A DNA stretch of 46,699 nt, from positions 1 through 46,699 of IMG/VR virus record IMGVR_UViG_3300045108_000011, one strand, 5' to 3'. Below the pieces are notes generated by a model. The model was not told where the DNA came from. It saw only the letters and a list, made by a program, of their open reading frames with translations, and did not search any database. A program made the position numbers and the translations under genes. Source of the stretch: a virus. The number at the start of each line of letters is the position of its first letter. The stretch's first letter is position 1. Shown here in pieces: positions 25,423 to 46,699 of this stretch.

Positions 25423-26247
25423 ATGCCCCATCGCCACAGCAAAGCTGTGCATCGACGCCTGCACCTTGTCAGCCCAGAACTCAAGGGAGCGGATGTCCGC
25501 GCCTTGCAGGAGAGCATCAATCACGAATTCGAGCACCGCAAGCTCGAGTGGCACAAGGTCAAGGTCGACGGCGTCTACGGAGGGCGCACCTTCCATGCCT
25601 GCGCCTTCTTGGGCTGGGTGCTCGGCCTCCGTTCGCGGATGGTCAACACCGGCTCCTATGACCGGCCTCTGACGAAGAGGGCGCAGCGACTCCTTCGTAA
25701 CCCCTCGAAGCGGTCTCGACGCGATCGCATGCGAGAGCGAGTGCATAAAGGAAAAGTGGCCAAGCTCCGCCATGCCCACGAGACTGGCCCCAAGGCGGCC
25801 GTGGAGTTCATCCGCAAGCTGGCCAGCGAGGGTGTCCATGAGATCGGCGAAACCAACACCGGCAAGTGGGTGGACAAGTTCACCGGCTTCTTTGGGATCC
25901 ACGCTGTGCCGTGGTGCGGCTGTCTCGCTGGCTATGCCGCGAAAGTGATCGGTGGATCTACGGCGACCACCTGGTTCCCCTATGGCCCGAGCATCATGGC
26001 CGACGCTCAGGCTGGTCGCAACGGCGTTCACGAGGTCGCGTTCGACGACATCCAGGCAGGCGACATCCTCGTGCTCTGGGGAGGCGACCATGTCGTCACC
26101 GCAGCCGGGAGCCCTTTCCAGGACGCGGTCTCAACGGCCGAGGGCAACACCTCCCCGAACGACGGCGACAGCCAGGCCGATGGCGGCTGTGTCGCGATGA
26201 AGACCCGATCCCGCCCGGACGTGTCCTGCGCGGCACGTCCCTACTGA
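25423..26247 (+). CDS. Endolysin with C-terminal CHAP amidase/peptidase domain
   Basis: A 274-aa protein with AAAGGAGG upstream (25405-25412). The N-terminal 80 residues (VSPELKGADVRALQESINHEF, then VDGVYGGRT) look like a peptidoglycan-binding type-1 domain (helix followed by 'vDG.yG..t'). A basic linker comes next, then a CHAP domain: catalytic Cys in VPWCGCLAGY, His in WGGDHVVTAAG, and Asn or acidic partner in TAEGNTS. It cleaves peptidoglycan once the holin opens the membrane. It lacks a signal peptide, so it depends on a holin. It is followed by a small holin-like gene. Confidence 0.88.
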   Translation: MPHRHSKAVHRRLHLVSPELKGADVRALQESINHEFEHRKLEWHKVKVDGVYGGRTFHACAFLGWVLGLRSRMVNTGSYDRPLTKRAQRLLRNPSKRSRRDRMRERVHKGKVAKLRHAHETGPKAAVEFIRKLASEGVHEIGETNTGKWVDKFTGFFGIHAVPWCGCLAGYAAKVIGGSTATTWFPYGPSIMADAQAGRNGVHEVAFDDIQAGDILVLWGGDHVVTAAGSPFQDAVSTAEGNTSPNDGDSQADGGCVAMKTRSRPDVSCAARPY

Positions 26248-26258
26248 AAGGAATGAGC

Positions 26259-26423
26259 ATGCATCCCAAGGTCAAGGTGCCGGCGATCGTCGGCACCGTT
26301 CTCACCCTCGTGTTGGCGGTTGCGGCCGGCGTTGGCGCCGGGGTCCCCGCAGCCATCCCGATCACCACGGCACTCGCCACGGCGATCAACACGACCAGCG
26401 GCTGGCTCACCTACGGGCCGTAG
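26259..26423 (+). CDS. Small two-helix holin candidate
   Basis: A 54-aa protein. ATG 26259 lies 6 nt after GAAAGGA; an upstream in-frame ATG at 26253 touches the ribosome site and is less likely. The chain has a charged start (MHPKVKVPA), one long hydrophobic helix (IVGTVLTLVLAVAAGVGAGV) and a second amphipathic, Ala/Thr-rich helix (PITTALATAINTTSGW). Size and layout fit class II/III holins, which pierce the membrane to release endolysin. It lies directly after the endolysin gene. Its TAG stop is embedded in the second tRNA-like hairpin. Confidence 0.65.
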   Translation: MHPKVKVPAIVGTVLTLVLAVAAGVGAGVPAAIPITTALATAINTTSGWLTYGP

Positions 26424-26461
26424 CCGCCATCCGGGCTCGGGTTCGACTCCCGACCCGGCCA
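26416..26461 (+). other. Second tRNA-like T-arm minihelix overlapping the holin-candidate stop codon
   Basis: Bases 26437-26453 form a perfect T-arm: TCGGG, loop TTCGACT, CCCGA. This runs on into CCCGG and CCA (26454-26461). CCGGG (26431-26435) pairs with CCCGG to give a 10-bp stacked stem interrupted by one bulged base (C26436). An alternative partner, GGCCG (26416-26420), overlaps the TAG at 26421-26423. No D or anticodon arm is present. The arrangement duplicates the one at the portal stop, with different sequence in the stems. Confidence 0.6.
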
Positions 26462-26528
26462 TCTCCTGATTGCCCCCCGACCTGGCGGTCGACGTGCGGG
26501 CGTCCTGTAAACGACGGAAGGAAACTCC

Positions 26529-27104
26529 ATCCGCCGCCTCATCCTGCCCATACTCGGGGCTATTGTCGTGCTCGCCTTGTTCGCGAGTCCGTCGACTGCC
26601 TTTCGTACGACGCTCACCCCAGACCAGTGCCCCCGCCATGTCCTGCCATCGGCATTCGAGGAATTCGCCGAATCGGTGTGGCGTCTCCCGGCTTGGGAAC
26701 GAGGCCCGCCGAAGGCGAAGACGAAGGCCGCGGCGCGCCACCAGATCTACTGCGCTCGAGGAACGGGGCGACGTGGGGCGCTGAAGCAGCGGTGGCGAGA
26801 GGCGCGCCGAGCTTTTTACGAGCATCGTCGACACAAGCTCAAGCAGCGAGCTCGGCTGCGCTACCTGCCTTTCGCCTGTGGTGGGGGAACCAGATCAGCG
26901 ATCCCCTGCTCAATCATGTGGTGCGAGTCAGGTGGGAGCTATAGCGCCCAGAACCCGACCTCATCGGCGCGAGGGAAGTACCAGCTGCTCGACACGACCT
27001 ATGCAGAATGGTGCGTCGCCTGCAATTGGTCGAAGGACGACCAGGACCGAGCTGCTCACGACCTCTACGCCGCAGTGGGAGGATCGCCCTGGGCTTGCGC
27101 CTAG
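26529..27104 (+). CDS. Secreted Rpf/SLT-like transglycosylase (ATC start proposed)
   Basis: The C-terminal domain shows IMWCESGGSYSAQNPTSSARGKYQLLDTTY, the lysozyme-like core of resuscitation-promoting-factor and transglycosylase domains with its catalytic Glu (CESGG). A conventional GTG at 26568 would give 178 aa but cut off the signal peptide. From ATC at 26529 the frame reads IRRLILPILGAIVVLALF and then SPSTA, a full signal peptide with an AxA-like site. GGAAGGA lies 6 nt before that ATC, and no ATG, GTG or TTG exists between the upstream TAA (26508) and 26568. It probably acts as a second, secreted lysis enzyme beside the CHAP endolysin. Confidence 0.75.
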   Translation: MRRLILPILGAIVVLALFASPSTAFRTTLTPDQCPRHVLPSAFEEFAESVWRLPAWERGPPKAKTKAAARHQIYCARGTGRRGALKQRWREARRAFYEHRRHKLKQRARLRYLPFACGGGTRSAIPCSIMWCESGGSYSAQNPTSSARGKYQLLDTTYAEWCVACNWSKDDQDRAAHDLYAAVGGSPWACA

Positions 27105-27126
27105 ATTTCTCGCTTCACGTGACCTG

Positions 27127-27160
27127 AGCCCGTCGTCTCTTCGGAGACGACGGGCTTTTT
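27127..27160 (+). terminator. Strong intrinsic terminator of the late operon
   Basis: A 13-bp perfect stem, AGCCCGTCGTCTC (27127-27139) with GAGACGACGGGCT (27144-27156), is capped by a C(TTCG)G tetraloop and followed by a T run to 27160. It lies 22 bases after the transglycosylase stop and before the convergent reverse-strand gene. There is no A-tract on the other side, so it works in one direction, closing late transcription before the immunity region. Confidence 0.95.
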
Positions 27161-38159: not shown

Positions 38160-38914
38160 CTGCTACCGCAACTGATCCACTACGCGCTTTCCACGGCGAC
38201 CAGGAGGTGAAGGACAAGCTTCTCGCTCGGGTTACCGCCCATGAGAAGGCCGACGCGATAGTTCAGGGCACGTACGGCAGGAAGGTCAACGGCCACTATG
38301 AGCGCTGTGCAGTTGGGTGCTCGGTCCATGACCTGACCCAGAAACAGCGCAAGGACGACGACCTGCACTCCCTGTACCCCGAGCTGTTGGGCATCCCGGA
38401 GTGGCTCGCCCACCTTGAGGATCGCATTTTCGAGGGCCTGCCGAAGGACAAGGCTGGCGAATGGCCGCGGCGTTTCTCGGATGCCATCCCCGTAGGTGCC
38501 GACTTCGGTGGCTTGGCCGACCGCCTGGCTATCCGGCGCCTGAAGGAGGAGTGCCTACCCCTCAGCGGTCAGTGGCCTGAGTCGGTTCGAGCAGAGGTAG
38601 TCGCCTCGATCGAGCTGACCATTGCCGCGCTCGAAGGAAAGAAAAGTTTGGAGTCGGCGGAGTCGGCGGCGAGGTCGGCGGCGGAGTCGGCGGCGTGGTC
38701 GGCGGCGGAGTCGGCGGCGTGGTCGGCGAGGTCGGCGGCGTGGTCGGCGGCGAGGTCGGCGGCGGAGTCGGCGGCGGCGTGGTCGGCGTGGTTGGCGGAG
38801 TCGGCGGCGGAGTCGGCGGCGGCGTGGTCGGCGAGGTCGGCGGCGTTCGAACGCGAAGCTGATCGCCTCATTGCTGAGTTGGAAGCTCTCCCGGTTTTGG
38901 AGCCGGCCGCGTGA
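38156..38914 (+). CDS. Protein with Ala/Ser/Trp/Arg tandem-repeat domain
   Basis: A 252-aa protein. Residues 1-160 are an ordinary mixed fold (VTAHEKADAIVQGTYGRKVNGHYERCAVGCSVHD, where two Cys lie close). Residues about 165-230 are short repeats such as ESAAWSAARSAAESAAW, which form a Trp-studded helix. It ends with an acidic helix (READRLIAELEALPVL). Such SAAW/SAAR repeats occur in various bacterial and phage proteins of unknown function. The DNA behind the repeats is a near-perfect GC-rich tandem array. Confidence 0.65.
   Translation: MTATATDPLRAFHGDQEVKDKLLARVTAHEKADAIVQGTYGRKVNGHYERCAVGCSVHDLTQKQRKDDDLHSLYPELLGIPEWLAHLEDRIFEGLPKDKAGEWPRRFSDAIPVGADFGGLADRLAIRRLKEECLPLSGQWPESVRAEVVASIELTIAALEGKKSLESAESAARSAAESAAWSAAESAAWSARSAAWSAARSAAESAAAWSAWLAESAAESAAAWSARSAAFEREADRLIAELEALPVLEPAA
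38648..38850 (+). repeat. GC-rich tandem array (gcggcg/gtcg units)
   Basis: Trinucleotide-rich units built from GTCGGCGGC, GGAGTCG and GGTCGGCG repeat about twenty times in imperfect order over roughly 200 bp, all inside one reading frame. Copies differ by 3-nt steps, which suits slippage-driven length change without a frameshift. Confidence 0.8.
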
Positions 38915-45296: not shown

Positions 45297-45312
45297 TCTT
45301 CAGGGTCCAGCC

Positions 45313-45420
45313 ATGAGCAAGAGGGCGGCGGTGAACACCGTCTCAGACGGTGCTGGGAGTGCCCAGGTACGCCCTCTTGCTGATGGTTGGCCAACAAATG
45401 ACAAGGGGCGCGGGAGGTGA
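45313..45420 (+). CDS. 35-residue mini-ORF containing a cruciform sequence
   Basis: ATG 45313 to TGA 45420 reads MSKRAAVNTVSDGAGSAQVR ... and its stop overlaps the GTG of the excisionase-like gene. No good ribosome site precedes it. The inverted repeats at 45316-45381 fill most of the frame, so the DNA or RNA structure rather than the peptide may be what matters. Confidence 0.3.
   Translation: MSKRAAVNTVSDGAGSAQVRPLADGWPTNDKGRGR
45316..45381 (+). other. Three-way-junction inverted repeats next to xis/int
   Basis: A perfect 12-bp outer stem, AGCAAGAGGGCG (45316-45327) with CGCCCTCTTGCT (45370-45381), encloses two hairpins. These are CACCGTC-TCA-GACGGTG (45336-45352) and CTGGG-AGTG-CCCAG (45353-45366). 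The place just ahead of the excisionase and integrase genes makes an attachment-site or regulatory-RNA role plausible. Confidence 0.7.
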
Positions 45421-45629
45421 GCGAGGTAATCCCCCTGGAGCCGTGGCTGGACAAGCGAGGCATCGCGGGCCACTTCAAATGCTCGCCGCGATGGATCGAG
45501 CGGCGGATGGAGGAAGGTTTGCCGCACACGCACATCGCCGGAAGGGCTAAGTTTCACGTGTCGGAGGTCGAGCCTTGGCTAGAGGCGCACGGCCATATCG
45601 AACGGCGCGGGGAGGCAGCGGCGGCTTGA
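45417..45629 (+). CDS. Excisionase / AlpA-like HTH protein
   Basis: 70 aa from GTG 45417. A MerR-like winged helix (HTH_17 type) is visible: DKRGIAGHFKCSPRWIERRMEEGLPH, then AGRAKFHVSEVEPWLEAHG. These small proteins direct tyrosine integrases toward excision. The stop overlaps the integrase TTG start (TTGA), so both are translated together. It could also act as a transcription regulator. Confidence 0.8.
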   Translation: MSEVIPLEPWLDKRGIAGHFKCSPRWIERRMEEGLPHTHIAGRAKFHVSEVEPWLEAHGHIERRGEAAAA

Positions 45630-46699
45630 GTAAGAAGAAGCGGTGGGAGGGCAGGATCTATCTCGGCCGCGACGAGGAAGGCAAGCAACGTTTTCATTGG
45701 GTCGGGCGCTTCGACACGAAGCGGGAACGCGACGACGCAGTAGCCGAGGCCCGGATCCGCCTTAAGCGTGGGGGCGACCCGGCACTGCCGACCTGTGATG
45801 AATACGTCGATCGCTACCTAGCGGACTATGCCCGCCGTTGGGACGAGTCCTCCTGGCAGTCCAAGAAGGAGCGGCTGGCTCGGTTTCGCAAAGATTTTGC
45901 AGGGCGCTCCCTCGACATCCCACGGGCAGAGTTGAAGGACTGGATCAACGGCGAAGGCAAGTGGTCGCACCGGGATCCGGTAAGCCCTGGCTATATCCCG
46001 GGGATCGTCTCGCTCTACAACTACGCGATCGACGAAGATGATCTCCCCTTGGAGCGCAACCCAGCGCGCAGACTGAGCAAACGGTCCAAGGGCCGCGCAG
46101 ACGAACCTCCGCCGACCGAGGCCGAGTTCCAAGCGCTCGTCGAGGCCTGCTCTGCCTTGGGGGATCACGCAAAGTCGATGCGCGCCCTCCTCCTCTTTGC
46201 CGCATTCACGCTTATGCGGCCCGGTGAGCTCTACGCGCTCGAATGGACTGACATCGACTTCAGCACCATGCGTATCGGAAAGCGCCGGCGTCTCTATCGC
46301 GGCTTGATCGGGGAGCCTAAGACCGGACCGAAAACGATCGCCCTCACGCCACCTGCTCGTGACGCAATCATGGGCTTGCCCAGAGACAGCCATCTGGTCT
46401 TTCTTTCAAAGACCAAGAGGCGCTTGGCGCAGAGCACGCTCTCGGGCTACTGGTCGCAGGTCAAGGCCAGGGCCGAGCTCGACTTCGACTTCTACCACGC
46501 AACTAAGCACTATGGCGTCCACTACATGTGGACGAAGCTCGGCATGTCGTCGCGGGCGATAGCTGCGCAGGCAGGCTGGAGCCTGCGGACCGTCGAGGAG
46601 ATGTTGGAGGTCTATGGGCACGGCGATGTGGGCGCTCTCGAGGAGGTCGACGCGGCCTTCAAAAGCACCGAAATCCCGCCGCTTCGCGCAGTAGAGTGA
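45626..46699 (+). CDS. int: Tyrosine integrase
   Basis: 357 aa from TTG 45626. An N-terminal arm-binding domain (WEGRIYLGRDEEGKQRFHWVG) and a SAM-like core-binding domain (about 55-145) precede the catalytic domain. Catalytic residues are R198 (MRPGELYALEW), Lys in the EPKTGPKT hairpin, H291 in HATK, W318 (AGWSLRT) and nucleophile Y330 (EVYGHGD). The usual second Arg of HxxR is Lys (K294). The gene ends exactly at the window edge, so the attachment site beyond it is not visible. It mediates site-specific integration; the target is unknown. Confidence 0.9.
   Translation: MSKKKRWEGRIYLGRDEEGKQRFHWVGRFDTKRERDDAVAEARIRLKRGGDPALPTCDEYVDRYLADYARRWDESSWQSKKERLARFRKDFAGRSLDIPRAELKDWINGEGKWSHRDPVSPGYIPGIVSLYNYAIDEDDLPLERNPARRLSKRSKGRADEPPPTEAEFQALVEACSALGDHAKSMRALLLFAAFTLMRPGELYALEWTDIDFSTMRIGKRRRLYRGLIGEPKTGPKTIALTPPARDAIMGLPRDSHLVFLSKTKRRLAQSTLSGYWSQVKARAELDFDFYHATKHYGVHYMWTKLGMSSRAIAAQAGWSLRTVEEMLEVYGHGDVGALEEVDAAFKSTEIPPLRAVE

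Follow-up and report, generated by a model that had tools for sequence, protein, structure and literature searches.

Genomic setting of the elements

The window analysed here is a stretch of 46,699 bases comprising the whole of IMG/VR record IMGVR_UViG_3300045108_000011, which carries genes in a siphophage-type order (TerL, portal, capsid, tape measure, endolysin, integrase). The genes and signals relevant to the present analysis are as follows.

3333–4772, + strand: portal protein gene (phrog_533, E 8.2e-34), ending at element 1 (see below)
5641–6630, + strand: major capsid protein gene (phrog_1328, E 7.9e-96)
25423–26247, + strand: endolysin gene (phrog_21825, E 3.5e-10)
26259–26423, + strand: holin candidate of 54 aa, with a homologue in matching position in phage L004 (58% identity)
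26421–26423, + strand: TAG stop codon of the holin candidate, read from the sequence
26529–27104, + strand: transglycosylase-like gene that apparently encodes a signal peptide (PF06737, E 0.0014, below the cut-off)
27126–27157, + strand: terminator-like hairpin with a T run, 3' of the lysis genes (terminator scan)
45575–46699: integrase gene (profile match)

The holin candidate has no family match in PHROGs or Pfam. Among ten ORFs of the early region searched for tRNA-related functions, only an exonuclease, DNA methyltransferases and a weak hit to an uncharacterised family were recognised. From the TAA upstream of the transglycosylase-like gene to its apparent signal peptide (RRLILPILGAIVVLALFASPSTA) there is no in-frame ATG, GTG or TTG, and the motif GGAAGGA lies 6 nt upstream of an ATC at 26529 (window positions 26516–26540). 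Because a usual in-frame start is lacking and this motif precedes the ATC, the gene may begin at an AUC codon at 26529, or its original start codon may have been damaged.

A tRNA-like element between the lysis genes

The stretch that separates the endolysin/holin pair from the transglycosylase-like gene contains the element highlighted by the initial annotation, here termed element 2, with the following parts.

26416–26461, + strand: element 2, a putative tRNA-like remnant with an acceptor and a T-arm and with neither D arm nor anticodon arm
26416–26420, + strand: GGCCG, candidate 5' acceptor strand within the final holin codons, pairing with 26456–26460
26431–26458, + strand: local hairpin of 10 bp with one bulge, the minihelix of the initial annotation (−18.2 kcal/mol)
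26437–26453, + strand: T-arm with a perfect 5-bp stem and a TTCGACT loop (TCGGG-TTCGACT-CCCGA)
26454–26461, + strand: acceptor 3' strand CCCGGCC and discriminator A, assigned by analogy with the alignment of the L003 tRNA

A tRNA-like hairpin directly following the holin TAG, as originally described, can thus be recognised from its T-arm, acceptor 3' strand and outer stem. T-arms of tRNAs usually carry a G53-C61 pair and a TTCRA loop, and element 2 has both, together with a 7-nt 3' strand and a discriminator, i.e. the parts expected of a tRNA remnant. The predicted local fold, CCGGG-c-TCGGG(loop)CCCGACCCGG, has 10 pairs and a single bulged C, and corresponds to the acceptor/T-arm half of a tRNA that is recognised by RNase P, in agreement with the earlier comparison to minimal RNase P substrates. 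An alternative, tRNA-type pairing of GGCCG (26416–26420) with CGGCC (26456–26460) was recovered in a low-threshold Rfam alignment; in this register just 5 of the 7 acceptor pairs form, and the local hairpin competes with it. The holin TAG follows directly upon the 5-nt 5' acceptor strand, at what we take to be the place of the conserved U8-A9-G10 of tRNAs, a coincidence that hints at a tRNA origin of the element but is suggestive only. The bases CCA that had been read as a tRNA-like 3' terminus are in fact the last acceptor-strand bases followed by the discriminator A at 26461; the next bases are TCT, such that neither a 3' CCA nor an RCCA is encoded.

Element 2 is not a canonical tRNA gene, with no match in ARAGORN and none in Rfam at the gathering score. 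At low threshold, 26416–26460 matched the mascRNA family at 20.4 bits (E 0.023, below the gathering score) and the T-arm matched tmRNA (E 0.0057). Nor does it resemble an intrinsic terminator, as the hairpin lacks a T run and does not appear in the terminator scan.

A shortened tRNA-Met behind the portal gene

The pairing of element 2 with a first element, proposed in the initial annotation, was borne out: 5-bp stems that are fully paired and capped by a TTC[AG]A loop occur only twice in the window, at 4784 and 26437, both on the + strand and both after a TAG. The first of these belongs to element 1, and a second conserved block lies downstream of it.

4771–4808, + strand: element 1, a tRNA-Met(CAU) remnant with 6 of 7 acceptor pairs, a 6-nt linker, a T-arm and a discriminator
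4898–4975, + strand: second conserved island, in the leader of the scaffold gene (matching L003 at 72 of 78 columns)

Element 1, 3' of the portal stop, reads AGCGCCG-6 nt-GCAGG TTCGAGT CCTGC-CGGCGCC-A. It scores as a truncated tRNA at 20.6 bits (E 0.043, below the Rfam gathering score of 29) and is missed by ARAGORN. Its origin was resolved by comparison with L003, the nearest relative (83% portal protein identity) and the only one found with a similar portal besides contig L002, whose portal is 100% identical to that of the window. At the site of element 1, L003 holds a complete tRNA-Met(CAU) (full tRNA at 4340–4411; 4339–4412 by ARAGORN; Rfam tRNA 62.9 bits, E 1e-13), which likewise stops at the discriminator A without an encoded CCA. 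In an ungapped comparison (MAFFT having misaligned this part), window positions 4774–4810 differed from L003 4377–4413 at 2 of 37 positions, which together form one compensatory change of a T-stem pair from A-T to G-C. By contrast, the portal genes of the two phages differ at 82 of 203 fourfold sites, a rate at which two or fewer changes in 37 nt would be expected with P = 1.6e-6. Given the intact tRNA at the same site and the 2 differences in 37 nt, element 1 is, on this comparison, a tRNA-Met gene shortened in place by a deletion that took out the D arm and the greater part of the anticodon arm. Its remaining part would have been under constraint at least until the deletion, and that constraint may date from the whole-tRNA stage. 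The position of element 1 at the site of the L003 tRNA-Met also indicates that a tRNA gene was part of the late region in this phage lineage.

The spacer following element 1 cannot be aligned with that of L003 (38 of 90 columns). Between it and the scaffold start codon lies the non-coding block 4898–4975 (L003 about 4470–4546), TCGCCGAGACCAGCTAGGCGCGGGCGTAGGAGCCCG, for which Rfam gave matches at chance level only and which may be a promoter, a structured leader or a site for a regulator.

Chance expectation and fold energy

Shuffled sequences were used to estimate how readily such structures arise. Strict T-arms occurred at a mean of 0.13 per shuffled window (both strands, 300 shuffles) and loose T-arms at 0.64. 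Loose T-arms combined with any outer stem of at least 5 bp occurred at a mean of 0.10 per shuffled window, with at least one in 30 of the 300 shuffles and at least two in 1 of 300. In 20,000 shuffles of the holin–transglycosylase intergenic stretch, which was picked post hoc, a strict T-arm arose once and a strict T-arm with a coaxial outer stem of at least 5 bp not at all.

The fold energy of element 2 was ordinary (z −0.9 and −2.2). A hand-placed stretch of 101 nt over the element reached z −3.5, ranking 14 of 933 windows, and the grid windows 26351 and 26401 covering it gave z −1.6 and 0.05. The window-wide scan does not single element 2 out, and fold energy was dropped as a line of support. 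An outer stem paired over a free linker also says little, since in many real tRNAs 6 of 7 such pairs form by chance.

Relatives of element 2

No relative of element 2 was recovered. The lysis region gave no match in 50,697 phage records, the T-arm/acceptor sequence had no exact match in the viral contigs, and none of 296 actinobacterial genomes carried its 25 nt, even with 1 mismatch allowed. L004 is the sole relative found with the endolysin–holin pair, and behind its holin there is neither a tRNA nor a T-arm hairpin, an ORF start instead overlapping the holin stop. The layout of two elements that the initial annotation had suggested seeking in relatives was consequently not recovered, as no other genome was found with element 2. 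The search with the transglycosylase-like gene gave no relatives, and the loci of weak endolysin matches contained no related T-arm, with one unrelated T-arm-like match (L080).

Shortened tRNAs in other phages

A relaxed pattern derived from element 2 (24 positions, two of them free) matched 11 viral loci. Four of these lie inside full tRNAs (L025, L029, L034 and L035). In six of the remaining seven (L026, L027, L028, L030, L032 and L033), a 5' strand located 8 to 17 nt from the T-arm pairs with the acceptor at 6 or 7 of 7 positions. The seventh, L031, matches the T-arm pattern without a 5' strand that pairs with the acceptor.

Two of the six, L026 and L030, resemble shortened tRNAs and occur in other genomic settings. 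On the − strand of L026, two similar shortened tRNA-like elements lie about 280 nt apart (1446 and 1728) and share the linker GGCACACAG. On the − strand of L030 (10237–10483), a shortened tRNA-Leu-like element is followed by an apparently enlarged tRNA-Leu gene with an insert.

The other four (L027, L028, L032 and L033) come from related phages, the capsid protein of L032 being 58% identical to that of the window, and in each the minihelix is positioned about 110–115 nt upstream of the scaffold ATG. Their 5' GGCCG strand and the leader are conserved and the linker is variable. Agreement among the four in the T-arm and 3' strand was required by the search pattern, leaving the 5' strand as the sole unbiased part; it forms 7 of 7 pairs in L027, L028 and L033 and 6 of 7 in L032. 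As four of the five rows of the minihelix alignment were found with the pattern derived from element 2, scoring element 2 with a covariance model based on that alignment would involve circular reasoning; in addition, the acceptor of element 1 was misplaced there by MAFFT. The linker of L033 retains CTCATAT, resembling a Met anticodon loop (compare L036).

Among other relatives by capsid, 20 loci had no T-arm ahead of the scaffold gene (L010–L017, L019, L020, L023, L024, L038 and L073–L079). Genes for tRNA-Met occur elsewhere in this set: L016, a Cryobacterium prophage, has a complete tRNA-Met(CAU) at 6246–6319, just after the capsid gene and ahead of the following gene, and in L079 a tRNA-Met precedes the capsid gene by about 5 kb. 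A DNA search with the leader of L032 matched 60 of 396 genomes, and the 20 loci read were mostly ordinary tRNA 3' ends. Fragments of tRNA-Leu 3' ends without the 5' half were seen in actinobacterial genomes (L046 and L047), and are probably integration scars.

Origin and possible role of element 2

Element 2 is real and in all likelihood tRNA-derived. The preferred explanation, to which a probability of roughly 0.6 was assigned, is that it represents a decayed phage tRNA gene without a fixed role. A phage-borne tRNA gene would once have sat between the holin and transglycosylase genes; after a deletion of its D and anticodon arms, the T-arm would have survived together with the acceptor 3' strand and some of the 5' acceptor strand. 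These remains are of the same kind as those of element 1 but of a different tRNA sequence, and the six other phage contigs carrying similarly shortened tRNAs provide a supporting precedent. The searches yielded no homologue of element 2, and we infer its descent from a tRNA from its structure and from the example of element 1. The remnant would presumably be transcribed together with the lysis genes, as the terminator scan lists no terminator between the holin candidate and the next gene, and is predicted to fold as a minihelix. Host RNase P, on the 5' side, or a 3' tRNA-processing nuclease may occasionally bind or cut it. Neither remnant can decode, given the absence of a D arm and of a usable anticodon arm.

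A role as a retained processing mark is doubtful. Both minihelices would then be kept as cut sites for RNase P (perhaps together with a 3' tRNase) in a late polycistronic mRNA, separating portal from scaffold/capsid messages and holin from transglycosylase messages and thereby setting their stabilities. This arrangement, termed 'tRNA punctuation', is known from mitochondria. Element 2 has the shape of an RNase P substrate, with a predicted acceptor stacked on a T-stem with a T-loop (10 pairs, one bulge). According to PMC11221534, the acceptor and stacked T-stem form the contact of bacterial RNase P, the remainder of the tRNA being dispensable for binding, and PMC11143913 describes RNase P as also processing some mRNAs and the phage C4 antisense RNA; a minihelix in a late transcript could accordingly be cut. 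Consistent with retention are the T-stem of element 1, preserved through a compensatory pair, the survival at 4771 and in L033 of a 5' strand with pairing potential for the 3' side of the acceptor, and the conserved GGCCG and similar placement of the minihelix before the scaffold gene in the four phages with a homologous capsid. Against it, the distribution is patchy, with 20 loci of the same capsid family lacking a T-arm at this position, and the four additional carriers were found by the T-arm pattern itself. The constraint on element 1 may likewise stem from the whole-tRNA stage, and element 2 has no relatives and no encoded CCA, whose addition would be possible only after 3' trimming. The initial annotation had argued that conservation of shape with change of sequence is what selection would produce; as element 1 is the remnant of a tRNA that is complete in L003, the shared shape is accounted for by inheritance from tRNAs and need not reflect selection on the minihelix. 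The broader proposition, that tRNA genes were repeatedly shortened in actinobacterial siphophages of one capsid family and kept as RNase P cut sites in late mRNAs before the scaffold/capsid genes, and here also between lysis genes, is slightly more doubtful still.

It is improbable that element 2 is an ordinary stem-loop that resembles a T-arm by chance and that, if it had any function, would follow the holin message as a 3'-end or stability hairpin. This reading would account for a strong G+C hairpin immediately 3' of a stop codon with a fold energy no greater than the regional norm, and loose T-arms are common in shuffled windows. The strict T-arm is rare in local shuffles, the same genome has a tRNA remnant with an intact homologue, and the scan places a terminator behind the next gene and not at element 2. 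Chance as the main reading was rejected on the local shuffles, despite the ease with which chance meets loose criteria, and a terminator was ruled out by the missing T run. Far less probable again is an attachment-site-like tRNA 3' end, either an attP or an integration scar. Integrases often use tRNA 3' ends and this phage encodes one; prokaryotic tRNA 3' fragments commonly come from integration according to PMC9897764. The integrase gene is, however, 19 kb from element 2 and not adjacent to it, none of the 296 actinobacterial genomes shares the 25 nt, and element 1 occupies the position at which L003 has a whole tRNA. In Propionibacterium phage B22 (L022), a tRNA-Gly-like 3' half adjoins the integrase gene at about 20766 on the − strand and is a probable attP; unlike element 2, it has no 5' acceptor partner (best 4 of 7 pairs). 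The attP reading was rejected on the distance of the integrase and the lack of a 5' partner in the B22 example.

Should the minihelices prove to be retained, the phage would be using natural minimal RNase P substrates to divide an mRNA, and such cut sites in the late mRNA would constitute a phage form of mitochondrial tRNA punctuation. If they are mere remnants, they show the decay of phage tRNA genes in structural operons, with leftovers that are invisible to standard tRNA finders. No report of such remnants or minihelices in phages was found in searches of open-licence papers.

Comparison with known systems

The closest counterpart is the L003 tRNA-Met(CAU), of which element 1 is the direct homologue and which shares the T-arm, discriminator, acceptor 3' strand and site behind a head gene; the window elements differ from it in lacking a D arm or usable anticodon arm and in being missed by ARAGORN. 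The eukaryotic mascRNA / MEN beta family (RF01684), which gave element 2 its highest Rfam bit score, is similarly a tRNA-like element within a longer transcript, although with 20.4 bits against a gathering score of 42.5 the resemblance is one of shape. As in the prokaryotic tRNA gene fragments described in PMC9897764, just the T-arm and acceptor are recognisable, whereas those fragments derive from integration or CRISPR spacers and element 1 from an in-place deletion. RNase P model substrates such as pATSer, as presented in PMC11221534, also have the acceptor stacked on the T-stem and keep the T-loop; relative to these, the window elements have an outer stem of 5–6 pairs rather than 7, a 5'-side bulge or linker and no encoded CCA, and their cleavage is putative.

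Other structured regions in the window

The fold scan also drew attention to two regions away from the elements. A large imperfect inverted repeat at 45300–45400, directly upstream of the integrase gene, has the window's most over-stable fold (z −7.9) and is possibly an att or control site. Very stable folds were also found at 38651–38850, where GGCGGC/GGAGTC/GTGGTC repeats lie within an ORF.
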